Origin: Selaginella tamariscina
Lineage: Eukaryota > Streptophyta > Lycopodiopsida > Selaginellales > Selaginellaceae
Reading direction: 5' to 3'
Assembly (NCBI GenBank): GCA_003024785.1
Contig: PUQB01000111.1
Coordinates: 457,212-521,211 of the forward strand
Length of the DNA stretch: 64,000 nt
In this document: piece after piece, positions 5,061-43,408 of the stretch
How positions within the stretch are numbered: position 1 is the first letter of the stretch
How the letters are laid out: each line of letters starts with the position of its first letter
The notes under the pieces: model-generated
What the model saw: the letters and a program-made list of their open reading frames with translations, nothing else
The model's database searches: none
What the model was told of the DNA's origin: nothing
Translations under genes and position numbers: made by a program

Positions 5061-5087
5061 ATGCACGTTGTTAACTAAAATGGGCAT
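5061..5087 (+). repeat. E0 L-type terminal inverted repeat
   Basis: ATGCACGTTGTTAACTAA followed by AATGGGCATG, then the L-type subterminal 'tttatagttc...atttcttaat'. The same L type occurs at 31932 (reverse complement) and 37355. The next 500 bases are AT-rich subterminal DNA without a gene. Confidence 0.85.
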
Positions 5088-5603
5088 GTTTATAGTTCTA
5101 TTTCTTAATAATTAGCAATTTTAGTTATTTAATTAGCATTTTCTAATATTAAAAGAATATTCTTTAAAATAATATATGTTTAAAGAAAGAATATATGTTT
5201 TAAAATATATGTTTGAAGACAGAATATTCTTTAAAACATTATATTTTTGTAATTGACCCTTTAATAACTTAAGACCAAAAATTAATAACATTATAAAGTA
5301 AAAGATATTAAGTTGTATAATATATTATATTTAAAATTGTATTGGCCTGATATAAAAATTATTAAAGAGCATGAGAGGTACATTATATAAATATTTATAT
5401 TATTAAAATATTAATATTAAATATAACATTAATTAAAAATTTGTACTAGTAATAATATATATAATATACAAAATCTTATATAGTCAATCTTCCATATCTT
5501 TTTATAAATTTATATAGTTAAGTAAAAATTTGGTACTATTATTAAAGAGTTTATTATAATTATAAATATTAAATATACTATATTTTACAATTTTGTAATT
5601 GCT

Positions 5604-6506
5604 TTAAGCTTAGAAAATATACATTCTCTTGCAGTTTTGTTAATCATGACTTTATCAAGCTTCTGAACATCACCCATATCGAATAGATTTAACATTTATA
5701 AAACATGCTGGTCTTTTTAATTGGGAGACCACGTTTTCTCTAGGTATCTATTATATCTTTTGCTTTCCTTCTCATGTCGCCTTTTTGTGGTTTGAACCAT
5801 GCAACCTTTATTATACTATTTTTTGTGATAACTTCAAGTGTGTCAATAATTTAACCCATCCAGATAAGCTGATTATATAACACATATGAAATAATGAGGA
5901 CGATCATTAATTTTTAAAGATCCTTGCAGCAATTAAAGTATAATTTAGGTTTTTGGTTCCTTTGTTCAACAAAGTGTGGGGTTTACACTTCCACATCACT
6001 ATTGGCTTCTATGTCGCCTATGCTCATTGATGTCATTTCAATATCCTTTCACCACCTTATTTTAGGCCAAAAGGGTGTTATAATTATGTACTTATGATAG
6101 TAGGCCCTTCTAACTCTTGTACAATAGTCTCTCAATAATCAACCACATGCTTATATAGTTCTGAATAATCAGTTGCCTTATTAGAATTATTTGGCATTGA
6201 TTTTTGAATCCATGCTACATATTTTTTATGCCATCAATAATAAGCTCTTGTTCCTTAAGCTAGGCACTCAATGGTGGTTGTCCTTCTGGGAGAAGTGGCT
6301 TCCATCCTCTTCACTTTTAAAAAGCATTAAGCCCTTTTTCAGTAATCACTCATGCTTGATGGATGTAACTTGTACTGCATAATAGGTATACCATCTCTTA
6401 TGAAGAAAAAAATTGTAGTGACACAAGGTGACCAATTAAAGAATCGTTTCCCTCTTTGATATACTCTTTAAGAAACTTTTTGAAGTCTGGCACCTCAATC
6501 ACAAGC
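5604..6506 (-). pseudogene. E0 transposase, 3' half (split by E1)
   Basis: On the minus strand this encodes the C-terminal third of the same transposase seen at 17063-19630 plus 30959-31513. It starts at 'ctttgcttgtgactgagg', exactly where the 5' half stops at 31937, and ends with the C-terminal domain (counterpart of 31076-31513). The frame is broken by many stops. In intact form this region would hold the segment after the last catalytic acid, then a beta-rich module containing a 'PIWMGQI...VKVAWFKP' pattern that recalls BAH/Tudor-like chromatin folds; that fold is inference only. E0's transposase is dead both by decay and by insertion. Confidence 0.75.
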
Positions 6507-6510
6507 AAAG

Positions 6511-6610
6511 ATGCACGTTGTAACTAAAGTGGGCATGATACGTGAAAATGGGAATATAAAATAAATTACTAATTAATACTTAAGTTTTAATTATTAATTA
6601 ATCATTTAAT
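6511..6610 (+). repeat. E1 R-type terminal inverted repeat and subterminal DNA
   Basis: ATGCACGTTGTAACTAAA, GTGGGCATGATACGTG, then AT-rich TTAATTAA-type sequence. The same R end occurs reversed at 30958, 34095, 37593 and 43408. The first 27 bases are nearly identical to the L-type ends, after which the two types diverge, so the elements are polar. Confidence 0.88.
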
Positions 6611-6815
6611 TAATATGTAATTAAGCCTTAAATATTAATTAATTAATTAATCCTTCAATAACCTTACTTAGTAAGGAATATTCCTAAAATATCTTAGAAT
6701 ATTCATATTATTCTAAAAATAGTTTACAATAATGAAGAAATACTATCAAACATAATTACAAATGAAATCATTTTCTTATCAACATGTTAATTTTTTTATA
6801 AATACTTTCTTTCTA

Positions 6816-8159
6816 TCATACAAAGAAATCTTTTATTTTGTCTAAATCATCACTCTCCGGATTAATCAAATCATTTTGGTCAATATCTTGATGTTGTTGC
6901 CACCACTTAACACTCTCACGAATGCAATTGGGAGTTGCCATCCTTGTTAATACATAAGATGTGATAAGAGAAGGTCTGCATAAAGGCTCATCTAAAAACT
7001 GACGTTCCTTAAGAATAATATTATAAAGCGCCCGGTTGCTATCCTTCATTTTATAAAATTCAATATCACGAGAAAGAAAAGCTTCAGGAAATGTATGATA
7101 CGGTGGATACTGCTCACAAAAATTTTCGAGATTCTTCTTTCTGAGGCACGTATCCAAGTAGTTCACTAGCTCATCCATGATATCGGTATCAGAATATGGA
7201 TCGAAAGTGATTGGATGAATACAAGCAATGTTTTGGTTGAGCATAGCCTTCTGAGGAGAGTCGTCTACTACTAACATCTGTGCGTTCTTCATTATCCTTA
7301 AGCGACTGATCTCCCCATGAGTCCCAATTATTCTTTCATTCTTGAAGAAGTATGGCTTGCTTTCCTTTCTTATATTGTGAAATTCGAGAGGTTTATAACA
7401 TATTCGCTGGTCAAAAATCCAATCTTTACGAATCACCTCTTCTGCAACACTACAATGTTTCTTAAGTAAATTCAACAGCGGTGTTAAGTTATGAATCTGC
7501 ATGCATGACCAAATCCCCACAAGCGCACCCATCTCCTTAAGCTTTTGAAAGAGACGATCCAACCCTGGACGAAAAATAATATCATATCGAAATTTACCAT
7601 GACAAGGAATGAAATCTCCTTGTTTGATTTCTTTTTTCTATCCTGGGCCTTTGTCGATGAAGCAGAACACCATTGACATCCAACAACACAATATGGCCAT
7701 GAGTAACATGAGATAGCGTTGCCTCTTGAATACTTTGCAAATCACTTGTTTGCTCCCTTTCACATTTATCCGTTGCCACTATCTCGTTGCCTATCCCTTC
7801 ATCATTTAATTGTACATCATCCTTACAAGATTCAGATATTGCATGCGCTGAAGAAATTGATTTCGGAATGAAGCCAATAAAAATGATGATGAAGTGGCCC
7901 CCATGGTAACGATGTTTTGAGCTGCATTATTATCCATTTCCTGCATGAACTCTGTCATTCTGACATGTGGCACAAGAAATTGTCGCCAAACCCCTCTCTT
8001 ACCTCATGCAATGCTGAAAATCCATGTTCTCAATTATTTCATTACATCTGCAAAATGATAATTAGCTGACCTTAAAATTATCAAGGTATATTATTTACCT
8101 TGTTAATGTGTGACCCATGTTTGAACTAAAAGCTTCATTAATCCTTGAGAATTTATTTT
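6816..8159 (-). pseudogene. FCP1/NIF-type HAD phosphatase-like cargo gene (E1 copy)
   Basis: The protein has the HAD/FCP1 (NLI-interacting factor-like) motif set. Motif I, LLDVNGVLL, is at about 7686-7660. A motif II-like VGIWSC follows near 7515. Motif IV, VVDDSP, is near 7268. The usual DxDxT is DVNGV, as in a plant branch of this family, so the second aspartate is missing. From the splice signals I infer exons 8159-8099, 8047-8003 and 7940-6816. An upstream exon is likely, because 8160 is preceded by an acceptor. A frameshift between motif I and the rest (about 7630), shared with E2, splits the reading frame. A further one lies near 7885. It is 70 bases downstream of the ParB-like gene on the same strand, so co-transcription is possible. 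The role in the element is unknown. Confidence 0.72.
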
Positions 8160-8229: not shown

Positions 8230-11200
8230 TCAATTCATTATCAATTCTTCTTCGCTATTACCTTCTGAGTGAGGCGAAGAAGGTCTAAGCCGCTTGTGAG
8301 ATGGTTCAAGATCTTCTGCATCTTCTATTGATGTTTCCATGGGTCCTGGAGTGTGCGAATGTTCTGTACTCCTCGAGATAACTTCCGGTCTAATATCTGA
8401 TTGAAGTTCGTTCTCAGACTCCGAGATTGAACCAGATTCACCTTCAGAGCTATCGCACTTATCTGGAGGGAACTTTCTCAAATACGCCTTTATGGATCGT
8501 TGGGGTACTCAGTTGAGACCCAATCTATCCACTTGTTCAGGTCCTCAACCATGGTCTTATCCTTTCAACGGCAAACACACATGTATGCCGAAGGTAACAC
8601 TCCTTCAAGACGGACCCCCTAGTGCAGTAGTCAAAAACCCACGCATCACTGTGAGGACCCCTATCAAGTTGACGATGCTCCGTGCCGCTTGACTTGTAAT
8701 GTTTGGATAACGTACATTGCCGAATACGTCACTCATACCTATCGGTGTATCGGATGGAGGTTCAGGGCCGTTGGAGTGCAAACAGATGCCTGGCCAGTCA
8801 TTTGGAAGCTTGAAATTGTTTGGCGCATTCCTAACAACCAAGTGAACAACGTATCAATGCACTTGGGATTAGCATCGTTCATATAAAATCCTGTCCAACG
8901 ATGTCTATTCTTCTTGGCGAAGGCGAAGGCAAAAGTATCGGTGACATGAGCAAGAATCAAGAAATAAATACCTGAAAAAGTAGGTATCAGTGAAGAGCGC
9001 AAGCATGAATTCAATAATAAATACCTTCTATGTATATGCTTGCACGGCTAAGTTTCTCCACCAGATCCTCTAGTGCCCTATCTGTCGAAAGATTTTTTGA
9101 CACCCGCCGATCCATCACGAACAATTGAAACGGTTTCCTACAAGCAGTGATGTTACCCCATAAAGTCTCCGAATCTAACAACAAACATCTGTAGGGCTTG
9201 TCGTGATTCGTAGCATCCTCCTTTATAAGGTTCAATTCGGTTCTCCGCTGCTGAAGGACTGCCATAAGAGAAGGCGTCATCCCAATGTTCTCCTTTTTGG
9301 CGTTGGCGTGCAATAGATTCTTGCCTAGATCTTCCGATTGGTTCACCCATTCGACAAGCATATCATCGTTCGTCACATGCAAATATTTGCTGACCTCTTC
9401 ATATGTTGAAGTCGAGGTCCAACCCAGTTTGTGGCAGTGTATTCCCAACCACTCCTTGAAATGCCTGACCGTCTTCAACTCCATTGCCTTGAGATGAAAA
9501 GGAGAGGTTGGGCTGCTGTTATTAATTTGTAGTTTGCCATCGATCACCAAATCAGCCAAGACTTCCATCTCCTCCATCGTTGTTCCATTTAAAGGCTTCA
9601 ACCATGTGAGCTTGAAATCGTTGTCTACATCCTTTGTAGATTGAACAGACTTAGCCTTCGGCGTCTTACTGGGTTTCTTTGCAGACTTTTCTGAGGGCTC
9701 CCCTTCACTTGTCTGCTTCTTCTTCAGTGTTCCTTTTGAAAAGGATTCCATAATCCCCAACCATTTGGCAAAGATCCTATCTTCGGGGCAAGAAATCAAC
9801 ATCATCAGAAAGGATGTTTCCTTCCCGCCCACCTGGGCAAAATCAACTGCTGCAATTTCTTCAACTCTCTGAGGAAAAAGACAGATTAATATACCGGCGA
9901 GATAAATCCCGCCCAAACAATTTGCTTACCCGGTATTCCGCAGATTGTGTATTCCCTGCGGTAGCTCTTTGTGGTCGCTGAAGAGATTCCCACACGGCTC
10001 GCGTGTGTTTAAACTTCTCCCATATTTTGCTGTTGTAGTGGTTGGTGTCGGCAGCGTCCCATTCCGCCGATAACTTATGGTACTGCTCGATTGTGAGATT
10101 CGGCTTAGCTAAAAACGCCGATCTTTTTGTCAGCTTCTCACGGGTATGCTCGGAAAGTTTTGTTGCCATCGTTCCTTTGTTGTGTTCATCGAGAAGTCGT
10201 TGGGCTGCCGTTATTGTGTGCTGGCCACTAATGATGTAGTACTTGATAGATTTTTATTCTCCGTCTGAATCTTCATGAGTTGTTCTGGTGTTGTGATCCA
10301 GACTTTGTCAGCGCCCTTCCTTCTTTCATAGTATGGACACAAAACAGCATTATGTGGAACGGTATAAGAATTGTCGTCCTTCATCTTCTCCATGAGCTCA
10401 GCTACACGTTCCTGGTTGAGTGGCCTGTAATTGAAGTTTGGGTTGACGCTGCAATATTTAACCCTACAAGGATAAATCTTATCATCCAACATCATTTCCT
10501 TGTGACTTATTGCAGCATGAGATGCCACAGGTGCAGCTGACAAAACGATTGATGATTTTCTTTTGCGATCCGAATCAACATGTGTGATCCCCGACTGCAG
10601 CTGTTCTAGTGTTCTCGGCACACTCTTCCAGCTCCCGAAGCTTCCTAAGCAAATTGAACGTGATCTGTAGAGAACCTGAGACCGAGCCACCCTCTCAATC
10701 TCCCTTATGATGTCGCTGTGTTCTTCTTCAATGTGAAGAGGGAAGATTGCTCCACTTGCTGATTTTCTGTATTGTGAAGCAATATCTCCTGACAATACAC
10801 CTACTCGATGAGTCTGAAGATCTTCGAAGTAGACATCCAGATGGATCCCCTCCATAGATGGGCTTTCGTTGAGTTGAAGAAGAACTCCAAGGTCAACATC
10901 ATTAGTGAACACGTGAACGTCATTATCCACAAGTCGACAAAACCACCCGAAATTAATGTTGTAACTGACGACCTCTGGATCCGAGAACGTGACATTGGAT
11001 GGAACAAGGCATATCTGTCGAGCATCGTCCAATCTGGGTTCGCAGCCTGCTTTCGGGTGCTTGACTAGCGAATCTACTTTCCATTGTTTTGCTTGTCCAT
11101 GAGATGTGACAGAGGTTAATTTGACAGCAACCATGGTTGCTCCAATGCGCTTCCCATTTATCTTAAAATATGGCCAAGTTGATTCCAGAATCCCCCTGCC

Positions 11201-11369
11201 CATCTCTTCTCCTGCTCTTGTCTTTAATGTCACCTCAATTCCACATCTGAATACAAAAATGATTAGTTCAAGTATCCGAGTATAACAGATTTTATTTTAA
11301 TTCTTACCCAGAATTTGACGACGACTCCATACTAATGACTCGATCTCCTTGTTTGATCAAATCGTCCTT
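8230..11369 (-). pseudogene. ParB-domain plus methyltransferase-like cargo gene (E1 copy)
   Basis: Inferred exons are 11369-11308, 11246-9930, 9869-9025 and 8971-8230, all with GT-AG borders. The order of parts is: an N-terminal GDRVISM...GRG module; a long unfamiliar region; a ParB/sulfiredoxin-like region ending in ISGQHTITAAQRLL (about 10236-10195); a lysine-rich linker (KKPSKTPKAK); an unfamiliar middle; and a C-terminal part. In that last part, WVFDYCTRGS (about 8640) and CVFAVEKD (about 8580) look like motifs I and II of a DNA methyltransferase. No DPPY/DPPW catalytic motif is visible, so activity is doubtful. The tail is acidic and serine-rich. Frameshifts lie at about 10254, 8846 (shared with E2), 8665 and 8490. 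It could be a DNA-binding or regulatory factor of the element. Confidence 0.6.
9870..9929 (-). other. Short cargo intron carrying a palindrome-unit copy
   Basis: This 60-base intron (GTAAGC...CCTCAG) contains GGGCGGGATTTATCTCGCC, a one-arm variant of the unit that makes up the palindrome blocks. The same intron copy persists in E2 (about 27557) and, degraded, in E0 (about 40107), so the unit was in the intron before the copies diverged. Confidence 0.7.
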
Positions 11370-11659: not shown

Positions 11660-13060
11660 ACATGGAAGGTGCGGCGGGATTAATCTCGCCACCCCTTCAA
11701 TGCCTCCTGAAAGAGTGGGCGGGATTAATCTCGCCACCTTTCTGGAGGCCTTGAACGGGAGTGCGGAATTAATCTTGCCACCCTTCTCGGTCTCAGAGAG
11801 AACTGGGCAGGATTTATTTCTCACACCCCTTCAGTGACTCCAGAAAGGAGGCGGGATTAATCTCGCCCACCATGTAAGGGATGGTTAAATGAATTTCCCC
11901 ACCCTTCCCAATTCTCCATTGGTATGTTGAAACCTTCTACGTCTCAGACAGAAACGTTTGGGATTGGTCCGACTCACCAATGGAGAAAAAAGGAAGGGTG
12001 GCGGATTCATTCCTCCAACAGGCATTGAAGACTCGGCGGGATTAATCCCGCCGCCCAGGGCCTTCACTCGGTCCCTATGCGGCGGGATTAATCCCGCCGG
12101 ACGCCAATTCCCTGCGCGGAATCGGGCGGGATTAATCCCGGCCTAGGCACTTCAGGCAGGCCAATGGCGGCGGGATAAATCCCGCCCGATTCCGCGCAGG
12201 GCATGGCGTCGCGGCGGATTAATCCCGCCTCCCAGGCCCTTCACTCGGGCCTTAGTCGGCGGGATTAATCCCGCCGAACGCCAATGCCCTGTGCGAAATC
12301 TTGCGGGATTAATCCCGCCGCCTAGGCCCTTCAGGCAGGCCAATGGCGGCGGGATAAATCCCGCCCGATTCCGCGCAGGGCATGCGTACGCGGCGGGATT
12401 AATCCCGCCCACCATGTAAGGGATGGTGAAATTAATCCCACCACCCTTCTCAGTTCCCTCCATTGGTATTTTGTAAACCTTCTCCGTCTCAGACAGAGTT
12501 AGTCGGGATTGATTCAACATACCAATGGAGGAAAAAAGGGTGGCGGGATTAATCCGCCACCGGGTAATGAAGGTTCGGAGAGACTAATCCCGCCGCCCTC
12601 TCGTAAATCATGCGCTCACACATATATATTGGCTGCGGCATTTTGAACAGGGATGGGTGGGGGCGGGATTAATCCCGCCGCTTATATCCTGCGGAAGTGC
12701 CTGGAGCGGGATTAATCCCGCCGCCCTCCGCGAAGGGCATGAGCGTGGGGCGGATTAATCCCGCCGCATTCCGCGGAATTGCCCTGGGCGGCGGATTTCC
12801 GCGCTCTCGAGCCCGAAGAGCGGCGGGATTAATCCCGCCGCCCATTCCCTGTAAATGCCCTGCGCGGAATCCGGCGGGATTAATCCCGCCCATTAGCCTT
12901 CACACAGGCCATTGCCGGCGAGATAAATCCCGCCGCATTCCGCGCAGGGCATGGTGAGCGGCGGGATTATCCCGCCGCCACCCTGCGAGGGCCTGGCGGC
13001 GGGATTAATCCCGCCGCCATGGCCAACCCTATAGCGGCGGGATTAATCCCGCCGCTCGAG
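11660..13060. repeat. Palindrome block 1 of E1 (GGCGGGATTAATCCCGCC array)
   Basis: About 25-30 perfect or worn copies of the 18-bp perfect palindrome GGCGGGATTAATCCCGCC occur roughly every 40-60 bases. GC-rich spacers recur among them, such as 'ttccgcgcagggcat' and 'cccttcactcgg', some in inverted orientation. The block lies upstream of the ParB-like gene. ORFs with repeated GGINPA/GLIPP peptides here are translations of the array, not genes. Confidence 0.92.
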
Positions 13061-13084
13061 GGGCTTAACGTGTGTGCGAGAGAA

Positions 13085-13143
13085 AAATTAATAAATAAAA
13101 AAATTATACAGATAAAAACACACACATATATATATGTGTGTGT

Positions 13144-13186
<43 letters not shown>

Positions 13187-13690
13187 GTATAGGAGTGTAC
13201 GTGTGTGTGCAAGAGATAGATAAATAAATAAAATTATACAGTACTGGTACACATAATATATGTGTGTACATAGGTATATATATGTGTGTATATGTATATC
13301 GTGTGTATGCGTGTGAGCGAAACAAATAAAATCATACAGATAAACAACACACACACACACATATATATACACAGGAGTGTGCGTGTGTGTGCGAAAGATA
13401 AAACTAATAAATAAATAAAATTATACAGATAAACACACACATATATATGTGTGTATATAGATATAATGGAATATATAGCATATATAAACTAGTGTTGTAT
13501 ACTATTTGTTATATCATTGATTATAATATATATATAGTATATATATATATGTAAAGCAGTGTGCGTGTGTGTGAAAGAGATAGATCAATAAAATTTTTTT
13601 TATAGATACTGGTACACATAAAATTATACGCACACTCCTATACATATATACATACATACATATACACAACACACACACACACAGATCTCA
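13085..13690. repeat. CA/TG and TATA microsatellite zone of E1
   Basis: Runs of (CA)n, (TG)n, (TA)n and (TATG)n alternate with a recurring 'agataaataaataaaatt' sentence roughly every 120-230 bases. The mirror image lies at 23340-24435 in E2. There is no gene here; translated TYIHTYI strings are low complexity. Confidence 0.88.
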
Positions 13691-16003: not shown

Positions 16004-19000
16004 AGGAGCGAGATTAAATTGGGTGCTATTCTTTATAGGAAATCACGGCGCCTTCAGTGCTGTTTACAAGTATTATAAACAAATTTAAAAATACTTATAA
16101 AGATTCACTCTCTTACATTCTCTCTTAAAATTACAATTTAGGGGTTTAGGAATGCATTAGGATTATAATATATTCCGTTAGGATTTATCCCGTTTAAATA
16201 TCCTTTTAACTTAATATTCTAGGTTAACCGGGCGGCGGGATTAATCGGCCATTTCTTTTTCGCCTCTTCGAAGAGGTGGCGGGATTAATCCCGCCACCAT
16301 CTCTCGGGCAATGCTTCTCCGCCACTGAAAAAGAGTGGCGGGATTAATCCCGCCGATAACCTTCTCAACTGATGAAGAGTTACCAGAATTTATTAGAAAG
16401 AGTTATCGGCGGGATTAATCCCGCCAACCATTTTAGGAGGCAGGGAAGGGGTGGCAGGATTAATCTCGCCACCACATCCCTGTTTTAAGGATTTGGGAAC
16501 AGGATTTATCCCGAGATCTCTTTGACTCATAGTTTTGGAGAGAGTTATGTGCGGGTTTAATCCCGCCACCCATTCCCCGTCGTAAGAATTGTGGGCGGGA
16601 TTAATCCCGCCTTGGACTCCCTCCAACAAGGAAGAGCCGGCGGATTAATCCCGCCGCCTCTCCTCCTCGGGGGAGTCTGGCGGGATTAATCCCGCCGACT
16701 CATCCTCGCCGGAGAGAGTCGGCGGGATTAATCCCGCCGGACTCCCCCGAGGAGGAAGAGGCGGCGGGATTAATCCCGCCGGCTCTTCCTTGTCGGAGGG
16801 AGTCCAAGGCGGGATTAATCCCGCCGACTCTCTCCGAAGGGGTTGAGTCGGCGGTGGGATTAATCCCGCCGACCGTTCCTCGTCGGAGGGATTCGTGGGC
16901 GGGATTAATCCCGCCCATCAGTTGTATTAATCAAACATGAGATATATCTCTAAACATAATTATGTATTATTGCATATGCATATTATTAAGTAACCGTAAT
17001 TCAGATTTCTTAGAAATATTGCATAAACAGATATCATAAATAATACAATTATTTATGTGCAGGACAATATGTTTAATACTGGAGATAAAGTATGTCTTCT
17101 TCGGAACAACGAGATAGTTGGCACTGAAACTGTGGAAGTTCGAGATAATAATGCATCATGTCACAATATTGCCCAAGGATCTTGTGTGTACGTATGGGTG
17201 AACACCATTTACAAGCATGTTGAGGTTCTGGAAATGGAATTTGAGGAGGGTTCTCCTGTATTGTGGAATTTGGATGAAGTCAAGGCTGACACAGAATATG
17301 CAAAGTCACAAACAAATAGTAGCACGAGTTTACCAGATGATGGCTTGCCTGCTGTGATGGATGAGGTGATTCTCTTCTTCGTGAGATTGAAGTCGGAAGA
17401 GGCATCATCACAGCTATAAATCCAATGGAAGCAGTGTCAGAAGAGAAACTAGGGTCCGACTTCGTGGGTGTAGTTGTGACAGAGGTTCACCTAATGGCAC
17501 ATTGTATCCTGGATCCCTCGTGAGGTGGCGAACATCTGAATTAAGACGGTAAGATGGTTCAAATATTCTGGGTTGGATTTCAATAATAACAACCCAGAAG
17601 AACAACTCATATTTAAAGAGGTTCCTTACATTGGTCCTATTGTAAGAAAAAGGCGATTCATGGGTTGTAGATCTTCCCCTGCAAGTTTCAGCAAGAGGGT
17701 AAAGATGGATCCTACATCTTCCGAAAGTGTTACGAGCATTTCCACGATTGACTGTTGCAAGAAGAAGTGTTGTCAGATGGCAGACCGGAATGAAATTACC
17801 CAATGTAGACATGTCTTTCGTATGCTCACCCAAAAGCAAAGGCATGAGTTTGTATATGCTGCACTAACTGGGTGTATTGATGGAATGGCCTCGGACACAG
17901 GTTATCAGAGTACATCCATGGTATTTAATAAGGTGGCCATCTGCTTCAAAGCTTGGTACAGTATATACGGGATCCCAAAGACCACGTTCTACCGTCGGAG
18001 GGATGAGTGGCTAGATGGAGCGCGAACCTCAGTTCATGGGAACACTGGCTTGGTCAAAACCCGCTCTCACATCATGGCAGCCATAGAGATACTCAAGGCT
18101 TTTGTGGAAGCAAATGCAGACAGGATGCCTCACAAATGCCGAACCACAAATGCAGGGGTTAGGGAAAATCTCAAGGTTTTACTTCAATCTACACTCAATT
18201 GAAACTGTGTGAACATGTGAACAAGTGCCTCAGTTTGATGGGGCTCCAAGCAATCTGCACTGGTACCTTCAACAACATATGGAATACTCATTTTAAGGAT
18301 GTGGAGATTGCAAAACACTCTAGCTTTTCTAAGTGTGACACTTGTACATCATTGAAGCTGCAGAGGCTTGTGCAAAAAACCTTGGTGGAGATCACTACCA
18401 TTCAAAGGAAGATGGAGGCCCACATGATTGCACAACAAATTTGCCGGTCTCAGTACTATGCACACCGCATGCTTTCTGTGTCACGCCCATCAGAGTACCT
18501 GTGCTTGATCCATGACAAGATGGATCATTCAAAGACCAGCATTCCAAAGCTCTTTGCAACACCAAAGTGCCTTGGAAATGTCATGAAACTTCCGATTTCA
18601 TTGACAGGTGTGCTAACACATGGACACGGTTGTGAGTCATATGGACACTTTTCACTTCCACATTGTCTAGCGACTCCAATTTCACTATTGGGTCGTTAGC
18701 CATGTGTTTCAGAAACCTTGAAGCCCACTCACAGACAAGTCCTATCAGTGATCTCAAAGTGAAGAAACAACACCTTCAACCTTTACATAATGCTCTCATG
18801 AACACGTCTGCACTTGAGGCTACTTGGGAATATGAGAGGCATTGTCAACAGCCTACACAGAAAATAGATGGCCATGTTGAGAGTTCTGGTTTAGTGGAGG
18901 GATCTAGCTCAAATAGTGTACATGTGTCCTCAACATCAAATAAGCTTCCTCGTCATTTGCTTCTACAGATGGATAATTGTGCAGCGAGAACAAAAAATAG

Positions 19001-23632: not shown

Positions 23633-23700
<68 letters not shown>

Positions 23701-24435: not shown

Positions 24436-24439
24436 GCTA

Positions 24440-30671: not shown

Positions 30672-30958
30672 AAAATTAACATGTTGATAAGAAAATGATT
30701 TCATTTGTAATTATGTTTGATAGTATTTCTTCATTATTGTAAACTATTTTTAGAATAATATGAATATTCTAAGATATTTTAGGAATATTCCTTACTAAGT
30801 AAGGTTATTGAAGGATTAATTAATTAATTAATTAATATTTAAGGCTTAATTACATATTAATTAAATGATTAATTAATAATTAAAACTTAAGTATTAATTA
30901 GTAATTTATTTTATATTCCCATTTTCACGTATCATGCCCACTTAGTTACAACGTGCAT

Positions 30959-31513
30959 ATAAGCAAGTGGTCGACTATTGGGAGACTGTTGTTCGAGAGT
31001 TGGAAGGGCTACTGTCACAAGTACAGAATTGCAACACCCTTTCTGGCCTAAAACAAGGTGGCGAGAGGAGATTGAATGACATCACTGAGCACAGATGACA
31101 TAGAAGCTAGTAGTGATGTGGAAGTGCAAACCCCACACTTTGTTGGACAAAGGAACCAAAAACCTAAAGCATACTTTGATTGTTGCCAGGATCTTCAAAA
31201 ACTAATGATGGTTCTCATTACTCCAGATGCGTCATATAATCATCCTATTTGGATGGGTCAAATTATCGACACACCTGAAGTAATCACAAAAAATAGTATT
31301 GTTAAGGTTGCATGGTTCAAACCACAAAAAAGGCGACACGAGAAGGAGAGCGAAAGATATAATGGATGCCTAGAGAAAACATGGTCTCCCAATCAAAAAG
31401 ACCCAGCATGTTTTATAAATGTTAAATCCATTCGATATGGGTGGATGTCAAGAAGCGTTGATAAAGTCACGATTAACAAAACTGCAAGGGAATGTATGTT
31501 TTCTGAAGCTTAA
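30959..31513 (+). pseudogene. E1 transposase, 3' part after E2
   Basis: It begins with the second ATAA copy and continues the reading SELYK-QVVDYWETVV. A frameshift near 31075 leads into the last ORF (31076-31513). That ORF has HPIWMGQI and VKVAWFKPQKRR, then KDPACFINVKSIRYGW, and ends at TAA. This is the C-terminal module of the transposase, beta-rich and possibly chromatin-binding (inference). After it, 31514-31932 is AT-rich L-end DNA without a gene. Confidence 0.75.
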
Positions 31514-31932: not shown

Positions 31933-31936
31933 AAAG

Positions 31937-33641
31937 CACAACTTTTTTTGGAGATGCAAAGATCCATCATATGCGGTAAGGTAAGTGCACTTGTCCTTTT
32001 TATAGAGTTGAAGACCTTACTGAAGAACGCATTAATATCTTCATGAGTGTGACCAATCATAAGAAAACTGAGCATGATTGTTTCAAACACACATTTGGCA
32101 ACAACCATTGACAAGTATGTTGTTTCTTCACTTTGAGATCACCCATAAGACTTGTTTGTGAGTGGGCTTCAAGGTTTCTGAAACACATAGCCAATGACCC
32201 AGGTATTCTGATGGGCGTGACACAGAAGCATGCGGTGTGCATAGTACTGAGACCAACAAGTTTGTTGTGCAATCATGTGGGCCTCCATCTTCTTTTGAAT
32301 GGCAGTGATTTACACCAAGGTTTTTGCACAAGCCTCTACAACCTTCAATGATGTACAAGTGTTACACTTGGAAAAGCTAAAGTGTTTTGCAATTTCCACA
32401 TCTTTAAAATGAGTATTTCATATGTTGTTGAAGGTACCAATGCAGATTGTTTGAAACCCCATCAAATTAAGGCACTTGTTCACATGTTCACATAGCTTCA
32501 ATTGAGTGGAAATTGAAGGTAAAACCTTAAGATTTTCTTTGACCCCTGCATTTGTGGTTCGCATTTGTGAGGCATCATGTCTGCATTTGCTTCTACAAAA
32601 GCCTTGAGTATTTCTATGGCTGCCATAATGTGAGAGCGGGTTTTGACCAGGCGAGTGTTCCTATGTATTGAGGTGCGCGCTTTATCTAGCCACTCATCCC
32701 TCAAACGGTAGAACATGGTCTTTGGGATCCCGTATATAGTGTACCAAGCTTTGAAGTAGATAGCCACCTTATTAAATACTATGAATGTACTCTGATAACC
32801 TGTGTCCAAGGCCATTCCATCAATATACCCAGTTAGTGCAGCGTATACAAATTCATGCTTTTACTTTTGGGTGAGCATACAAAAGGCATGTCTACATTGG
32901 ATAATTTCATTCTGGTTTGCCATTTGACAACACTTCTTCTTGCAGCAGTCAATTGTGGAAATGTTAGCAACGCTTGCCGAAGATGTAGGATCCATCTTGA
33001 CCCTCTTGTCGGAACTTGCAATGGCAAATCTACAACTCATGAATCACCTTTTTTTTACTATAGGACCAATGCAAGGAACCTCTTCAAATATGGGTTGTCA
33101 TTCCGGGTTGTTATTATTGAAATCCAACCCTGGATATGTTGAATCATCTCGCTGTCTTAATTCAAATGTTCACCACCTCACGAAGGATCCAGAATTCAAT
33201 GTGCCATTAGGTGAAACTTATGTTACAATTACATCCACGAAGTAAGCCCTTAGTTTCTTTTCTGATATGGCATCCATTGGATTTATAATTGTGATGATGC
33301 CCCTCCCAACCTCGATCTCATGAAGAAAGAGAATCACCTCATCTATCACAGTAGGCAAGCCATCATCTGATGAACTCGTATTATTATTTATTTGTGACTC
33401 TGCATTCTCTGTGTTAGCCTTGACTTCATTCACATTCCATAATATAGGAGAACCCTCTTCAAATTCCATTCTAAGAACCTTAACATGCTTACAAATGGTG
33501 TTCACCCATACGTACACACAAGATCCTTGTGCAATATTGTGATATGATACATTATCATCTTGAACTTCCACAGTTCCAGTGCCAACTATCTCGTTATTCC
33601 AAAGAAAATATATTTTTATTTTTAGTATTAAACATATTGTC
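31937..33641 (-). pseudogene. E0 transposase, 5' part (exon 2 up to the E1 insertion)
   Basis: Exon 2 begins at 33641 (after TGTGCAG), with GTGTVEVQDDN following. The HTH-like IPKTMFYRLRDEWLDKA is at about 32740, and the GHTHEDINAFF catalytic-region motif is at about 32050. A roughly 500-base internal deletion removes the MDNC acid region, joining 'gatctcaaag' directly to 'acatacttgtcaatgg' at about 32120. Exon 1 lies at 35225-35160 with ATG intact but its donor mutated. The gene is cut at 31937 by E1. Confidence 0.75.
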
Positions 33642-33715
33642 CTGCACATAAATAATTGTGTCATTTATAATATCTGTTTATGTAATATACAAAAAAATCT
33701 GAATCTATGGTGCTT

Positions 33716-34095
33716 AAGATATTGACCAAAATGATTTGATTAATCTGGAGAGTGATGATTTAGACAAAATGAAAAAATTTCTTTGTATGATAGAAAGAAA
33801 GTATTTATAAAAAATTAACATGTTGATAAGAAAAAATTTCATTTGTAATTATGTTTGATAGTATTTCTTCATTATTGTAAACTATTTTTAGAATAATATG
33901 AATATTCTAAGATATTTTAGGAATATTCCTTACTAAGTAAGGTTATTGAAGGATTAATTAATTAATTAATTAATATTTAAGGCTTAATTACATATTAATT
34001 AAATGATTAATTAATAATTAAAACTTAAGTATTAATTAGTAATTTATTTATATTCCCATTTTCACGTATTATGCCCACTTAGTTACAACGTGCAT
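33716..34095 (+). mobile_element. One-ended fragment of the family (R end only)
   Basis: This 380-base piece is nearly identical to 30580-30958: the last codons of the phosphatase gene, then R-end DNA and CAACGTGCAT. It lies in E0 intron 1 where E1 and E2 have uninterrupted sequence ('cttaataatatgcat'). It has no L end. Its left border starts at 'aagatattgacc'. Confidence 0.75.
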
Positions 34096-34159
34096 ATATA
34101 TGCGTGTGTAATAATATATAATTATGTATAAATATAGATATCATGCTTGATTAATACAA

Positions 34160-34985
34160 GTGGTGGCGGGCGCCACCCCTTCTCTGTCTAATAGAATGGT
34201 GAGTGGGATTAATCCCGCCCACAACTCTCTCTGACGAGGAAGAGTTGGCAGGATTAATCCCGTCCATAACTCTCACCGACGGGGAAAGGTAGTGGGATTA
34301 ATCCCGTCCACAACTCTCCTGACGGAGAAGAGATGGCAGGATTAATCCTGCCAATGCTTCCTTGCCTCCTAGAATTGGGGCAGGATTAATCCTGCCCACC
34401 ATTTAGGAGACAGAGAAAGCATTGGCGGGGTTAATTCACCTTCAAAAATGGTGGGCGTGATTACATATTGACTTTGTTATGATGTGCCATTTGGTGAAAC
34501 TACTTTAGGGGTTTAGGATCCATTAGGATTGCATTAGAATTTATTAAGGATTTATCTCGTCCACATATCCTCTTTAATTAGAATTTTTAGCTAGTTAAGA
34601 TTTTAGAGAGATCTTGTAGGGGTGGCGAGATTAATCCTGCCAATACTTCCCTACCTCCTAAACTAGTTGGTGGGATAAATCCCACTTACAATTCTTTAAA
34701 ACAAGGAAGGGCCCGCCACCTCTTCCATGCCTCTTAAAATGGTGGGCAAGATTAATTTCGTCCACAACTCTTTAAAATTAATTTTGCCAACTCTTCATCG
34801 TTTCAGAGAGTTGTTGATGGGATTAATCCCGCCGCCCTTTTTAAGAAGTGGAGAAGCATTGGCCGGATTAATCCCGCCACCCCTTCCCCATTTCAAAGAG
34901 TTGTGGGCGAGATTAATCCTGCCACCTCTTTTAAGAGGCAGAAAAGGAATGGCCAGATTAATCCCGCCACCCATCGAGAACTTTT
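34160..34985. repeat. Palindrome block 2 of E0 (worn)
   Basis: About 15 decayed copies of the palindrome unit (for example GTGGGATTAATCCCGCC, GGCAGGATTAATCCTGCC). The changes are mostly C-to-T/G-to-A, as expected from methylation decay. Position relative to exon 1 (35225) and exon 2 (33641) is as in E1 and E2. Confidence 0.85.
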
Positions 34986-34989
34986 TAAA

Positions 34990-37350
34990 ATCTCGGCTAA
35001 CCAAGAATTTTAAGTAAAAAGAATGTGTAAACCGGATAAATCCCTAACGAATTATAATGCAATCCTAATGGATTCCTAAACCCCTAAATTTTAATTTTAA
35101 GAGAGAATGTAAGAGAGTAAATCTTTATAAGTATTTTTAAATTTATTTATAATACTTATTTATAAACAGCATTGAGGGCGCCGTACTTTCTTATAAACAA
35201 TAACACCCAATTTAATATCGCTCATGAGGTGATCACTATTAAGAAAATAGAAGATCTGAAGAGAAATTCTTGCCAAAGAAAGAATCATATCTAAAATTGA
35301 GTGGGAAATTAAAAGCATTTTCAAATTTATATGTCAGACTGATAATACTTATGTCAGAATTTTAAATTTTTAAAAAGAAAATAAAATTTAAAATGAGTTG
35401 ACAAAAATAACCGACTTTCTAACATATATACTCTCTAATTCCAATGATTTTTATAAATTGCATTTAATATATTTAACATTAGCAAGTGATTTAAGTTGTT
35501 TAATTTTATAAAATTTTAGTAATTATTTTACATTCTTAATATTCCAGTATATATTATTAAGTATATTATAAATATATATATTTATACAATAGATAAAATG
35601 ATATATTATTATGTATCAATTAAAATATATTCATAGTGTGTATATTAATATTATTTCTTAAATATTCGAGTAATTAATCTACATTTCTTTATATATTCTT
35701 TATTATTTTCTTAATATTTCAAGAATATTCCAATATTAAACATGATTATCATAATTAAATTATATATATTCTTAATTATTTAAGTAATTATTCTACATTT
35801 GTTTATATTAATGGGATTTTCTCACTTATTTTCTTATTATTTCAAGAATATTCCAATGTTAAACCTTATTATTATTAAATTAATATATATTATTAAAACT
35901 ATATATGACTATATATTAGATAAAATGATATTTATTATGTATAATTTAAAATATGTTCAAAGTGTATATATTAATATATTTTCACTTTCATTCAATGCTT
36001 TTTTGCACACATATATAAACTCAATAAAAAATTTACATATACACGTGCACACGCATTACAAGTACTTACAGAGACACATATGCACACACATACACAAGCC
36101 GATGAGTGAATCATGATATAAATAGATATTCAGGGGTCTACCATCTAGCTTTGTATTTACGGTTTAGGTTTAAATCCCAAACTAAACATTTATATTTACA
36201 CACACTCTACACTGGGGCTTACATTATATACATACACGAAATATTTATAAGCTTTTACATGCACACAACACACCCTTTAAAAACATCCCACAATATGCAT
36301 TAAAAGCACCTATAGAGACACATATGCACACATACACACACTGATGAGTTAATTATGATACAAATAATTAAATGTTTAAGGGTCTAGCATCAAGCTTTGT
36401 ATTTAGGGTTTAGGGTTTACCCTAAACCAAACACACACTCTACACTAGGACTTACATATACACACACAAAAACATCCATATATCTATGTTTAGTGGACAA
36501 AGTAAATTTATATTAAATAATTAGAAAAATGTGCATGGATTTAGTTTATATTAGTATAAAGTTTATACTAATATATTATTATGTGCTATGATTGCTTTCA
36601 AATGTGTTTTAATATCATTATGTTATTTTAAATTAAAATTGGGTATATTCAAATATACACATACAATTTTAAAGCATGAGCAAATTATAATTTGCATTTT
36701 TAAAAATAAGTTTTTAACATAATTGACAAATCAGTAGAATGATTTGTGATTTTATGTTTTTCTACTTGACTATCAACAATTCTTTATGCATGTTTTCTTG
36801 TGTATTTTTATACGAATAATAGACTTTTATACATATATTAAAATTTAATAATAAAATACTTACATTGGGTTTAAACCCTAAACCAAACTGGGAAGATATG
36901 TTGCTTCTTTATCGAAAACATCATGTTAAACGCATGTATAATCCATATGTACTCAGTCTGTGTGTATGTAACATATTGAATTCACACATGTAATATGTAT
37001 GTATGTTTGTGTGTATACATGTGTGTATGTATAGACACACATGTTAAACCCCAGCATGATTTATATTTTTGAGTATGTGATACACCCACACATGCACACA
37101 AATTTAAGATTATGATAATATAATAAAAAAATATTCATTTAGGGTTAATATATATTTATTTCTTTTAGGGTTTAGGTATATTCTTAAGCAAAGAAGAAAA
37201 ACATGGTGGCAGTGGAATGTGAGAGTGGCAGTGCAATAAATCAATAGATCTCTCTTTCACAAGGGGCGGTGCAAAAAGGCACAGCGGTGTAGTAGGGTTT
37301 AGAGGCGCATTCACACAAGTGAAATCTCTCTCACATGCATACTCCTATGT
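34990..37350. other. E0 exon 1 region and AT/CA-rich spacer
   Basis: It holds E0 transposase exon 1 (35225-35160, minus strand), then AT-rich DNA, then CA-rich DNA with one clear telomere-like patch (about 36405-36435, with both TTTAGGG and CCCTAAA). This is the same order as in E1 and E2. I see no other gene. Confidence 0.65.
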
Positions 37351-37354
37351 ATAT

Positions 37355-37593
37355 ATGCACGTTGTAACTAAAATGGGCATGTTTATAGTCCCATTTTTTA
37401 ATAATATTAGCACTTTTAAATATTTAATTAGCATTTTTTAATATTAAAGAAATATTCTTTAGATAATATGTTTAAAGAAAGATTTAAAAATATATTTATT
37501 AAATAATTAATTAAAAATTAAAACTTAAGTATTAATTATATTTATTTTATTCCCATTTTCCTATATCATGCCCATTTTAGTTACAATGTGCAT
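37355..37593. mobile_element. MITE of the giant-element family
   Basis: The 239 bases start ATGCACGTTGTAACTAAA with L-type subterminal DNA ('gtttatagtcccattt') and end with R-type DNA and CAATGTGCAT. The TSD is ATAT on both sides (AT-rich context, so weaker evidence). The interior is only AT-rich. It is a deletion derivative holding just the two ends, so these ends appear sufficient for movement. Confidence 0.85.
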
Positions 37594-37839
37594 ATATATA
37601 TCTGCATGTGATAGATAATTTATTTATTTACCTGTATACATTTATATGTGTGTGTATCTATATAATAAAATTTATTTATTTATCTCTTGCATACACATGC
37701 ACACTCCTATATATATACACTATACATATACATATACATATATACACATGTGTGTGTATCTGTATAATTTAATTTTTTTATTTATCTCTCGCACACTCCT
37801 GTATATACATATAATATATATATGTGTGTGCATCTGCCT

Positions 37840-38265
37840 GGTGCACGGGATTAACCAAACGGTAGCAGGATTAATCCTGCCACCATGACATACCTAAAGG
37901 GTGGCGTGATTAATCCCGTCTCACACTCTTTAAAACATAAACGATGGTGGGCGGGATTAATCCTGTCCCACACTCTTTAAGACATAAAGGGTGGCGAGAT
38001 TAATCTCGTTGACCTTTTCATGCCTGGTGAGTAGGATTAATCTCACCGACTGTTCGAGGAGGCGTGGAAGTGGTGAAAGGATTAATCCTGCTCACTGGGC
38101 ATGGAAGGGGTGGTGGGATTAATCCCGCCACCCTTTATGTCTCAAAGAATGTGAAGCGAGATTAATCCCGCCCACCACCTTTATCCATATGAGAGAGTTG
38201 TGGGCGGGATTAATCCTGCCCACCAGGCATGGAAGGGGTGGCAAGATTAATCCCGCCACCCTCTA
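37840..38265. repeat. Palindrome block 1 of E0 (short, worn)
   Basis: About 9-10 decayed palindrome units with spacers such as 'cactctttaaaacata'. It sits just upstream of the ParB-like pseudogene, as in E1 and E2, but is far shorter. Confidence 0.85.
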
Positions 38266-38679
38266 TGTGAATGTACATGTATATTAATATATATAAGTTC
38301 TTTATCTCCTTTTATTTACTTCTTCAATGTTATGATAATATTTTGAGTAAAAACCAATAAACTATGTAAAATTGTCCAAAGCACATTTGTGGTGGTTCTA
38401 AAACCAAATAATACTAATTTTTTGCACTATCATTTAGACACTTAATCCCGTCCACTTCTTTTTGAGACAAAGAAGGGTGTATATGAATTTACTAGTGTAT
38501 TAATTACATAAACACATGTTTGTCTGTATATTATAATTTTTCACCATTTAAATAGTCTGAGCATTTCATAGAAAAATATGTATAGACTCTGTAAAGTTTT
38601 TAATAGTGTATTGTATATTGGGTTTATACAAGTGTTGTGTGTGTTTTTTTATAAATTGTATTCATAGTGTATTATTGTG

Positions 38680-41600
38680 CAAAAAGACGGATTGATCAAA
38701 TAAGGAAATTTAGTCATTAGTATTAAATTCTAGGTAAGAATTAAAACAAAATCTGTTATACTCGGATATATGCTTGAAGAATTAATCATTTTTATGTGAA
38801 ATTAAGGTGACATTCAAGATAAGAGGAGGAGATGAGATGGGTAGGGGGATTTTGGAATCAGCCATATTTCAAAATAAATGAGAAGCGTATTAGATCAACT
38901 ATAGTTGCTGTCAAATTAACCTCTGTCACATTACGTGGACAAGCAAAACAATAAAACCTAAATTCATTAATCAAACACTTGAGGGCATGTTGCGAATCGA
39001 GATTGGACGATGCTTAAAATATATGCCTTGTTCTATCCAATGTCAAGTTCTCGGATCCAAAGGTCGTCAGATACGATAAGAACCTCAGGTGGTTCTATCG
39101 ACTTGTGGATAATGACGTTCACATGTTCATTAATGATGTCAACTGTGAAGTTCTTCTTCAACTACTCATCTATGGAGGGGATTCAATTAAATGTTTACTT
39201 CGAGGATCTCAATACTCATTAAGTAAGTGTATTTGCAGTAAATATTGCTTCATAATACAGAACATTCATCAGTGAAGTAATCGTCCTTTCTCTTATTGAA
39301 AAAGAACATAGCGACATCATTAGGGAGATTGAGAGGGTGACTTAGTCTTAGGTTCTTTATAGATCACGTTCAATTTGTTTAAGAATCTTTGAAAACTGGA
39401 AGAGTGTGCCAAGAACATTAAAACAGCTGCAGTTGGGGCTCATACATGTTGATTCTAACCGCAAAAAAAAATCATTTGTCGTTTTGTCAGTTGCCCATGT
39501 GGCATCCCATGTTGCAATAAGCCACAAGGAAATGATGTTGGATGATAGGATTTACGAGTGTATGGTTGCAGCGTTAACCTCAACTTCAATTACATGCCAC
39601 TCAACCAGGAACGTGTAGCTAAGCTCATGGAGAAGATGAAGGATGACAATTCTTACACCGTTCCACATAATGTTGTTTTGTGCTCATACTATGAAAGAAA
39701 GAAAGGCACTGAGATAGTATGGGTGACAATACCATAACAAATCACGAAGATCTAGATGGAAAATAAAAAATCAATTAGGTATTACATTATTTACGGCCAA
39801 CACAATATAATGGCAGCCCAATGACTTATCGATGAACGCAATAAAGGAATGATGGCAACAAAACTTTCCGAGCATACACGTGAAAAGCTATCAAAAAGAT
39901 TGGCGTTTTTAGCTAAGCCGAATCTCACAATCGAGCAATACCATAAGTTATCGGCGGAATGGGACACTGTTGACACTAACCACTACAGCAACAAAATATG
40001 GGAGAAGTTCAAACACACACAATCCATGTGGGAAAATCTTGGGCAACCACAAAGAGCTACTGTAGGGAGAGAACAAAGTGTGGAATACTGGATAAGTAAA
40101 TTGTTTTGGTGGGATTTATCTCGCCAATATATTAATTTGTCTCTTTAGAGAGCTGAAGAAATTGCAATAGTTGATTTTGCCCAGGTGGGCGAGAAGGAAA
40201 CATCTTTTCTAATAATGTTGATTTTTTGCCCCGAGGACAAGGTCTTTACCAAATGGGTGGGGATTATTGAATTGTTTGCAAAAGGAGCATTGAAGAAGAA
40301 GTAAACAAGTGAAGGGAGAAGTCTGCAAAGAAACCCAGTAAAACAGAGAAGGTTAAGTCTGTTCAATCTGCAAAGGATGTAAACAACGACTTCAAGCTCA
40401 CATAGTTGAAGTCTTTGAACAGAACAACGGTGGAGGAGATGAATGTCTTAGCGATTGATGGCAAATTACAGATTAATAACAGTAGCCCCACCTTTCCTTT
40501 TCATCTCAAGGCAATGGAGGTGAAGATGATCAGGCACTTCAAGGAGTGGTTGGGAATACACTGTCATAAACTGGGTTGGACCTCGGCTTCAACATACAAA
40601 GAGGTCAGAAAATATCTATATATGACAGACGATGATATGTTTGTTCAATGGGTGAATCAATTGAAACATCTGGGCAAGAATCTATTGCATGCTAACGCCA
40701 AAAACGAGAACATCACAATAACGCCTTCTTTATAGCAATTCTTTAATAGCAGAGAACCGAGTTGAACCTTATAAAAGAGGACACTATGAATCATGACAAG
40801 CCGTACATATGTTTGTTGTCGGATTTAGAAAACTTTATGGAGTAACATCACTGCATGCATAAAATGGTTTCAAATGTTCATAATGGATTGACAGGTGTTA
40901 AAAATCCTTCTTCAGATAAGGCACTAGAAGATTTGGTGGAGAAGCTTAGTTATGCAAGCATGTACATAAAAGGTATTTATTATTGAATTTTTGCACACTT
41001 TGCTGATACCTACGTTTTTAAATATTTATTTCTTGATTTTTGCTTATGTCACTAATACTTTTGCCTTCGTCTTTGCCAAGAAGAACAGACATCGTTGAAC
41101 TGGATTTTATATAAACAATGTTGATTCCAAGTGTATTGATATGGTTGTTTACTTGGTTGTTAAAAATGCGCCAAACAATTTTAAACTTCCAAATGACTAG
41201 CCAGGCATCTGTTTTCACTCCAACGGGCATGAACCTCCATCCGATACATTAATAGCTGAGAGGGACATATTCGGCAATGTACGTTATCCAAACATTACAA
41301 GTCAGGCTGCACGGAGCATCGCCAACTTGATCAGGGTCCTCACAATGATGCATGGGTTTTTGACTACTACACTAGGGGATCCGTCTTGAAGGAGTGTTAC
41401 CTTTGGGATACATGTGTGTTTGCCGTTGAAAAGGATAAGACCATGGTCGAGGACTTGAACAAGTGGATAGAGATGACTATCGTAACAAACCCATACAAGA
41501 GTATTTAGGAAAGTTCCCTCCCGAGAAGTGCGATAGCTCTGAGGAGGAATCTAGTTCAATGTCGGAGTCTGAGAACGATTTTGAACCAGATATTAAACTA

Positions 41601-41757
41601 GAAGTTATCTTAAGAAGTACAGAACATTCACTTACTCCATTGACCATGGAAACATCAACAGAAGAAATGGAAGATGTTGAATGATCTTCTAAGCGACTAA
41701 AACCTTCTTTGCCTCACTCAGAAGGTAACAGCGAAGAAGAATTATTAATGAATTGTT
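38680..41757 (+). pseudogene. ParB/methyltransferase-like cargo gene (E0 copy, decayed)
   Basis: It is colinear with 26106-29238 but has many stops and indels. Recognisable pieces are MATKLSEHTREKLSKRLAFL (about 39852), FKEWLGIHCHKLGWTSASTY (about 40534) and KCDSSEEESSSMSESEND (about 41525). Near 41135 the reading IDMVVYLVVKNAPNNFK is in frame, where E1 and E2 share a 1-base deletion. The copy shows that the ParB-like cargo was present before E1 and E2 arose. Confidence 0.7.
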
Positions 41758-41827
41758 AGAGTGACGAATAGTTGTAAATGAGTGTAACATAAGGCATTTT
41801 TGTATATTTCGTTTATATTTATACAGA

Positions 41828-43190
41828 AAATAAATTCTCAAGGATTAAAGAAGCTTTTTGTTCAAACATGGGTCACACATTAACAAGGTAAATAATATAC
41901 CTTGTTAATTATAAGGCCAGCTAACTATCATTTTGCAGATGTAATGAAACAGTTGAGAATATGGATTTTCAGCAATGGCATGAGGTAAGAGAGGGGTTTG
42001 GCAAAAATTTCTTGTGCCACATGTCAAAATGACAGAGTTCATATAAGAAATGGATAATAATGCAGCTCAAAACATCCTTACTATGGGGACCACTTCAGTT
42101 TTTGCATCACCATTTTTATTGCCTTTAGTTCCTACATCACTTTCTTCAGCACCTGAAATATCTGAATCTTATAAGGATGATGTACAAGTAAATGATAAAG
42201 GGATCGGCAACAATATAGCATCAAAAGATAAATGTGAAAGGGACCAAACAAGTGATTTGCAAAGCATTCAAGAGGCAACGCTGCCCCTTATTACTCATGG
42301 TCATATTGTGTTGTTGGATGTTAATGGTGTTTTGTTTCATCGACAAAGGTGCGAGGATAGAGAAAAAGAAATCAAATAAGGAAATTTCATTCGTTGTCAT
42401 AGTAAATTTCAACATGATATTATTTTTTGTCGGGGTTGGACCATCTCTTTCAAAAAGCTTAAGGAGATGGGTGCACTTGTGGAGATTTGGTCATGCATGC
42501 AGTTTCACAACTTGACACCGCTGTTAAATTTGCTTAACAAACATTGTAGTGTTGCAAAAGAGGTGATTCATAAAGATTGGATTTTTAACTAGCGAATATG
42601 TTATAAACCTCTCGAATTCTAGGATGTAAGAAAGGAAAGCAAGCCATACTTCTTTAAGAATGAAAGATTAATTGGGCTTCATTAGAAAATCAATCAGTTA
42701 AGGATTATGAAGAATGCACATATCTTAGTGGTAAACAACTCTCCTCAAAAGGTTATACTTAATCAAACATTGCTTGTATCCATCCAATCACTTTCGACCC
42801 ATATTCTGATATTAATACCATGGATGAACTAGTGAACTACTTAAATATGTGCTTCAAAAATAGAATCTTGAAAACTTTTGTAAGCAATATCGACTATATA
42901 AAGCATACTCTAACACTTTTCTTTCTCGTAATTTTGAATTTTATAAATTAAAGGAGAGCAATCAGGCACTCTACAATATTATTATTAAAGAACATCTTGG
43001 TCTTTATGCACTTATGTTCTTATCACAGCTTATGTATTAATAAGGATGGCAACTCTTAACTACATTCGTAAGAGTGTTAAGTGGTGGTAAACAACATAAA
43101 GATATTAACCAAAATGATTCAATTAATCCGGAGAGTGATGACATAACAAAATGAAGAAATTTCTTTATATGGTTAAGGAGAAAGTAATTA
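41828..43190 (+). pseudogene. FCP1/HAD phosphatase-like cargo gene (E0 copy, decayed)
   Basis: The N-terminal ORF 42050-42379 keeps LLDVNGVLFHRQR and continues in frame through DREKEIK, where E1 and E2 have lost a base. Downstream, 'gaggtgattcataaagattgg' and the rest follow the E1 sequence with many stops. The DVNG form of motif I is the same, so loss of the second aspartate is ancestral in this family and not recent damage. Confidence 0.68.
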
Positions 43191-43385
43191 CAAATAGATT
43201 AACAAGTTGATAAAGAAATGATTTTATTTGTAATTTAGGAATATTCTTTACTAAGTAAGGTTAATGAATTAATTTGTTAATTAATTTAATAATTAAGGCT
43301 TAATATTATATTTATTAAATAATTAATTAATAATTAAAACTTAAGTATTAATTAGTAATTTATTTATATTCCCATTTTCATGTAT

Positions 43386-43408
43386 CCCATTTTAGTTACA
43401 ACGTGCAT
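43386..43408 (-). repeat. E0 R-type terminal inverted repeat
   Basis: CCCATTTTAGTTACAACGTG then CAT, preceded by R-type 'attcccattttcatgtat'. A few bases (the 'catg' of CATGCCC) are lost compared with the R ends of E1 and E2. Confidence 0.82.

Follow-up and report, generated by a model that had tools for sequence, protein, structure and literature searches.

The question raised by the stretch of Selaginella tamariscina DNA analysed here (64,000 nucleotides of assembly GCA_003024785.1, contig PUQB01000111.1, positions 457,212 to 521,211 of the forward strand; hereafter the window, in whose numbering positions are given) is what kind of mobile element fills positions 5061-43408 and how it came to lie within copies of itself. 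Three copies of one transposon family are nested there, the outer copy E0 containing E1 and E1 in turn containing E2. Judged by its anatomy, the element is probably a giant cut-and-paste DNA transposon of about 15 kb, of the Sola kind and nearest to Sola-1, a reading to which we give a probability of roughly 0.7; its candidate transposase carries the domain DUF7869, and it has in addition a ParB-like gene, a NIF-type phosphatase gene and arrays of palindromes.

Structure of the nested copies

The outer and oldest copy, E0, lies on the reverse strand from its B-end at 5061 to its A-end at 43408, its own sequence being 5061-6510 together with 31933-43408. Within its DUF7869 gene stands E1 (6511-31932, forward strand, A-end at 6511 and B-end at 31932), and within the DUF7869 gene of E1 stands E2 (19631-30958, reverse strand, A-end at 30958). 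The A-ends (6511, 30958, 43408) are those nearer the NIF and ParB-like genes, and the B-ends (5061, 31932) those nearer the DUF7869 gene. The end motif is matched seven times in the window at up to three mismatches, compared with 0.30 matches expected; the left end of E0 at 5061, which has one extra base, is outside these seven and was read by eye.

The initial annotation had proposed a three-level nest of one family with inverted ends, resolved to the base and flanked by 4-bp target duplications. The nest itself is borne out by the junctions and by three empty sites, and the duplications are exact for E1 (AAAG at both 6507-6510 and 31933-31936) and for E2 (ATAA at both 19627-19630 and 30959-30962), while that of E0 is imperfect by one base (ATGT at 5057-5060, ATAT at 43409-43412). 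All three empty sites were found inside the window and each fits a 4-bp target duplication. The site of E1 is represented by the copy of the DUF7869 gene in E1 itself, around 19256, which is continuous save for a small gap nearby, and that of E2 by the DUF7869 gene copy of E0, around 6150, which is continuous. The site of E0 is continuous in a paralogous copy of its flank at 1522-1692, and can be read because E0 sits in one copy of another repeated sequence, three copies of which surround the nest (1-5060, 43409-46076 and 56239-60536).

E2 is internally deleted, with a length of 11.3 kb and about 3.4 kb missing relative to a complete copy. The deletion removes the DUF7869 gene beyond its first 80 or so codons and the B-end save for 7-8 bp; the residual ATGCAAG(T) is followed by sequence that complete copies have about 3.4 kb further in. 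E2 may have jumped with a short B-end or have lost the stretch of about 3.4 kb later.

Copies elsewhere in the genome

The family is abundant and, we infer, probably recently active. In the 300.7-Mb genome exact matches to the 18-base end ATGCACGTTGTAACTAAA number 1,516 and those to ATGCAAGTTGTAACTAAA 1,209, the backward control giving 0 for each. A 178-amino-acid piece of the DUF7869 protein drew at least 4,609 candidates at first look, and all 150 that were scored matched (118 of these 150 with identical score, identity and query range); a 273-amino-acid piece of the NIF protein drew at least 6,152, and 141 of 141 scored matched.

A first sample of ten genomic places yielded seven copies with both ends and readable flanks, two without the B-end and one with an N in the flank of the B-end. 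The seven complete copies measure 14,753-15,007 bp, and the ends are therefore paired elsewhere in the genome, at a size of 14.75-15.01 kb and not the 12-14 kb first proposed. Their ends are near-identical, inverted and start with ATGCA; the first 27 bases agree at 25 of 27 positions in six of the seven copies, the seventh having a one-base gap. An exact 4-bp duplication flanks five of the seven (AAGC, ATAA, TTTT, ACCA, ATAG). In a second sample, of 20 places, both ends were present in 11 and an exact duplication in four (AATA, ATAT, CTAG, ATAA). Combined, an exact 4-bp duplication is present at 9/18 of the copies in which both ends were read, for which chance would account in about 0.9% per copy; a few near misses, differing by a single base or displaced by one position, are not included. 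The consistent duplication to be looked for in other copies thus holds for half of them, and we would explain the remainder by chimeric assembly or by recombination between copies. A further miniature (L005) has a TTAA duplication.

Measured against the seven complete copies, mismatches amount to 1.2-2.7% in E1, 3.1-4.0% in E2 and 9.8-13.4% in E0. E1 has about as many gaps as mismatches, and some of its frame breaks may therefore be assembly errors.

Order of insertion

The left joint of E1 and E2 occurs at three places in the genome, in the window and on contigs C845 and C1237, both of which end inside E2, whereas the right joint of E1 and E0 occurs at the nest locus only. On C845 the left end of E1 is bordered by the E0 flank known from the nest, 99.6% alike over 251 bases, which makes it a duplicate of the nest locus, whether a genomic one or one introduced by the assembly. 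On C1237 (621608-638462) the A-end of E1, at 621608, lies 6.8 kb from the joint, compared with 13.1 kb in the nest, and its flank is unrelated. Provided that the assembly of C1237 is right, the composite of E1 and the E2 within it has existed at two sites and moved as a unit; unless C1237 is misassembled or chimeric, E1 may thus have brought E2 along when it inserted. A hop-by-hop order of three insertions at this locus is consequently not proved to be the only one. Of the serial hops into the transposase gene that the initial annotation described, the position stands, both inner copies being inside the DUF7869 gene of the copy that encloses them, while their succession here is unproved given the joint on C1237.

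Nor is a preference for the transposase gene shown. The DUF7869 gene makes up about one fifth of a complete copy, and two insertions into it by chance would, by our estimate, be roughly a 4-5% event; targeting was rejected as an explanation, the two insertions being compatible with chance. Two other pieces of the family in E0 lie outside the gene. One is a miniature copy of 239 bp (37355-37593, forward strand) with B-type and A-type ends and flanks ATAT/ATAT. The other is a solo A-end piece of 380 bp (about 33716-34095, forward strand), 97-98% alike to E1 and E2, with no 4-bp duplication seen; it may be either an insertion by one end or what is left of a copy after deletion.

The DUF7869 gene

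In E1 this gene extends over 17069-31513 on the forward strand, split by E2 into 17069-19626 and 30959-31513 and with its frames also broken; in E0 it extends over 5640-33664 on the reverse strand, split by E1 into 31933-33664 and about 5640-6510, and is degenerate. Three of the seven complete copies (C113b, C84 and C80), when spliced at a single 54-bp intron, each encode an uninterrupted protein of 1,021 amino acids. DUF7869 is the only Pfam match, at 9.1e-21 on one frame of E1 and 2.8e-38 on the joined reading of E1, and no mention of DUF7869 by name was found in the literature searched.

The homology search listed 42 relatives, ten with an organism name, of which nine are from Riccia sorocarpa and one from Physcomitrium patens. 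Aligned with one another, the relatives have D at positions 515 and 518 in 42/42, at 676 in 39/39 and at 718 in 34/34, and position 715 is E in 26/34 and D in 7/34; the invariant or nearly invariant acids are D515/D518, D676 and E715/D716/D718. This is the pattern that a DDE/D transposase would show, and these acids may be catalytic. The protein is taken to be the candidate transposase, as the initial annotation had it; the two further genes and the palindrome arrays that it listed were likewise found.

Among the contigs of prokaryote genomes searched, relatives came to light at one locus, L001 (1-4327), a DUF7869 gene with palindromes of another kind to either side. Its contig is assigned to the metagenome-assembled genome of a cyanobacterium and is probably plant contamination in the bin. 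The search of viral contigs gave 17 pattern matches, with no relative among them.

Accessory genes and palindrome arrays

The other two genes are on the strand opposite to the DUF7869 gene. In E1 the multi-exon ParB-like gene occupies 8230-11296 and the NIF-type phosphatase gene 6816-7958 (5' limit approximate), both on the reverse strand, the latter matching PF03031 at 2.1e-9. Their counterparts in E2, on the forward strand, are at 26240-29238 and 29466-30671, and in E0 both belong to a degenerate region of the forward strand at 38600-43100 (limits approximate). The multi-exon gene carries the motif ISGQHT, and we take the stretch ISGQHTITAAQRL to be ParB-like from the resemblance of this motif; a later stretch of the gene, VFDYCTRGS...CVFAVEKD, is presumably a degenerate methyltransferase motif. 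Its sole profile match, a weak one, is to phrog_21535 (E 0.12), of unknown function. Homology searches with the ParB-like protein and with the NIF protein found no homologue of either, and a literature search for transposon capture of a NIF gene gave no paper that, judged by its title and the opening of its abstract, deals with the subject.

Matches to the palindrome GGCGGGATTAATCCCGCC at up to five mismatches number 109 in the window, 109/109 inside the nest, compared with 0-2 in ten base shuffles of the 38-kb nest, and each of the seven complete copies holds 44-51. They form arrays at a spacing of about 45 bp, one upstream of the ParB-like gene and one upstream of the DUF7869 gene, the two genes being divergent; the apparent intron of the ParB-like gene contains a palindrome as well. 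In E1 the arrays are at 11672-13055 (ParB-like gene) and 16232-16918 (DUF7869 gene), in E2 at 24487-25928 (upstream of the ParB-like gene) and 20042-20817 (adjoining the DUF7869 remnant), and in E0 at 37861-38260 (ParB-like side) and 34156-34968 (DUF7869 side). Long simple repeats rich in CA/TG, whose length differs among copies, lie between the two arrays of E1 (13070-13624) and of E2 (23384-24474).

The occurrence of palindromes together with a ParB-like protein suggests that the arrays are parS-like sites. Double changes within the palindromes keep the pairing in 8/8 cases in E0, 16/22 in the complete copies and 10/11 in the whole nest; a claim of compensatory change was rejected because symmetric decay of CpG can explain paired changes. 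A more speculative proposal, which we hold to be rather improbable, is that of a self-marking transposon, whose own ParB-like protein would load on the 44-51 palindromes of each copy and coat or chemically mark the DNA of the element, regulating or shielding it in a plant-type nucleus, while the NIF phosphatase would alter transcription around it; the palindromes of L001 would then be the matching sites of another lineage. Whatever their role, the arrays offer a concrete candidate target for the ParB-like accessory proteins of algal transposons.

Affinities of the element and alternative explanations

Sola elements, in the excerpts of the literature used for this comparison, have a DDD transposase, 4-bp duplications and ends of 11-1124 bp, are mostly 2-9 kb long with some above 15 kb, and occur in Physcomitrella (PMC10741241), for which Sola1 is listed in a table (PMC9033089). 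Sola1-1_Ec32 of the brown alga Ectocarpus is a giant Sola-1 of 21.5 kb with an opposite-strand gene for a protein of 1,104 amino acids bearing ParB-like and methyltransferase domains, and a ParB-like gene is found in other algal transposons too (PMC12477816). The present element would be assigned to Sola because its 4-bp duplications, conserved acids, bryophyte relatives and opposite-strand ParB-like gene all match. The duplications are those of the three nest junctions (one imperfect) and of 9/18 other copies, and the 27-base ends fall within the range given for Sola (PMC10741241). With Sola in general the element shares 4-bp duplications, short variable ends and presence in moss (PMC10741241; PMC9033089), and its transposase would be expected to be of the DDD type; it differs in size, most Sola elements being of 2-9 kb. 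With Sola1-1_Ec32 it shares giant size and a candidate transposase accompanied by an opposite-strand gene read as ParB-like (PMC12477816); compared by description and not by sequence, the lengths are 21.5 kb there and about 15 kb here. The NIF phosphatase gene and the palindrome arrays of our element do not figure in the description of Sola1-1_Ec32 used for the comparison, and the methyltransferase part is here a degenerate motif, assigned by resemblance. The view of the initial annotation that no superfamily could be named with confidence is accordingly weakened, as the anatomy appears to fit Sola, with Sola1-1_Ec32 nearest.

This assignment should be considered with caution, as several points tell against it. 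Membership of Sola would follow from anatomy and not from sequence comparison; neither a significant profile match nor a relevant match among PDB sequences was obtained for the ParB and methyltransferase readings; the NIF assignment comes from Pfam, with no relevant match in PDB and homology searches; the DUF7869 frame is broken in four of the seven complete copies; and 9/18 copies are without an exact 4-bp duplication. On present evidence a giant Sola-1-like family with an added NIF phosphatase gene and palindrome arrays, and not a new superfamily, nevertheless appears most likely. Its DUF7869 protein would bind both ends, excise the element and paste it with a 4-bp staggered cut; the palindrome arrays may be bound by the ParB-like protein, with effects on either the DNA of the element itself or the two divergent promoters, and the NIF phosphatase gene would be a passenger. 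The nest would be a consequence of the abundance of the family: E1, either with the deleted copy E2 already in place or acquiring it later, would have landed in the older E0.

A less probable reading is that DUF7869 elements instead constitute a separate, unnamed cut-and-paste superfamily, which through convergence or gene exchange resembles Sola1 in its 4-bp duplications and ParB-like passenger. In its favour, Pfam gives DUF7869 alone, the literature searched does not name it, and a ParB-like gene that is also present in other algal transposons need not mark Sola (PMC12477816). Against it, Sola agrees in duplication length, range of end length, size and occurrence in Physcomitrella (PMC10741241; PMC9033089), and Sola1-1_Ec32 likewise in having divergent genes, one of them ParB-like (PMC12477816). 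It is very unlikely that the nest is partly an assembly artefact in which near-identical E1 and E2 were misjoined. The high repetition of the family, the ending of C845 and C1237 inside E2 and the want of duplications in half of the sampled copies would speak for such a misjoin, yet each junction has a mutually fitting duplication and empty site, and a second contig, C845, has the left joints of both E0 with E1 and E1 with E2, though this could be one locus that was assembled two times, and would then not be fully independent. Least probable of all is that another gene of the element encodes the transposase and DUF7869 is the passenger; two other genes are present and the transposase role is here read from sequence alone, but the relatives of the DUF7869 protein keep several invariant acids, while the other two proteins had no relatives in the searches and a piece of one matches a phosphatase.

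Other superfamilies were considered and rejected. The target of Kolobok and piggyBac is TTAA, whereas the duplications here vary (AAAG, ATAA, AAGC, TTTT, ACCA, ATAG, CTAG and others) and TTAA occurs once, in a miniature. Pfam has a model for KDZ, and scanning seven DUF7869 proteins against Pfam, with rows up to E 1 admitted, gave none for KDZ; the likeness to KDZ lies in giant size, accessory genes and a long transposase (PMC12477816). CACTA (En/Spm) elements are also large with short ends, and there is a sub-threshold match to Transposase_23 at the N-terminus of two proteins, but the ends here are ATGCA as opposed to CACTA or CACTG and the duplications 4 bp as opposed to 3 bp (PMC10741241). 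Ginger has ends TG..CA of 40-270 bp, in contrast to the AT..AT of 27 bp found here, and no row for a Gypsy-like integrase was obtained (PMC10741241).

With this element the DUF7869 domain is tied to a mobile element with resolved ends, and as amplification of the family appears to be recent and genes are uninterrupted in some of its copies, Sola-type transposition becomes testable.

Other features of the window

Beyond the nest, positions 46075-54210 are GC-rich and bounded by direct repeats of about 700 bp (46075-46771 and 53535-54210; 81% alike). The four frames scanned there gave no Pfam match, and the region is perhaps an old long terminal repeat retrotransposon.

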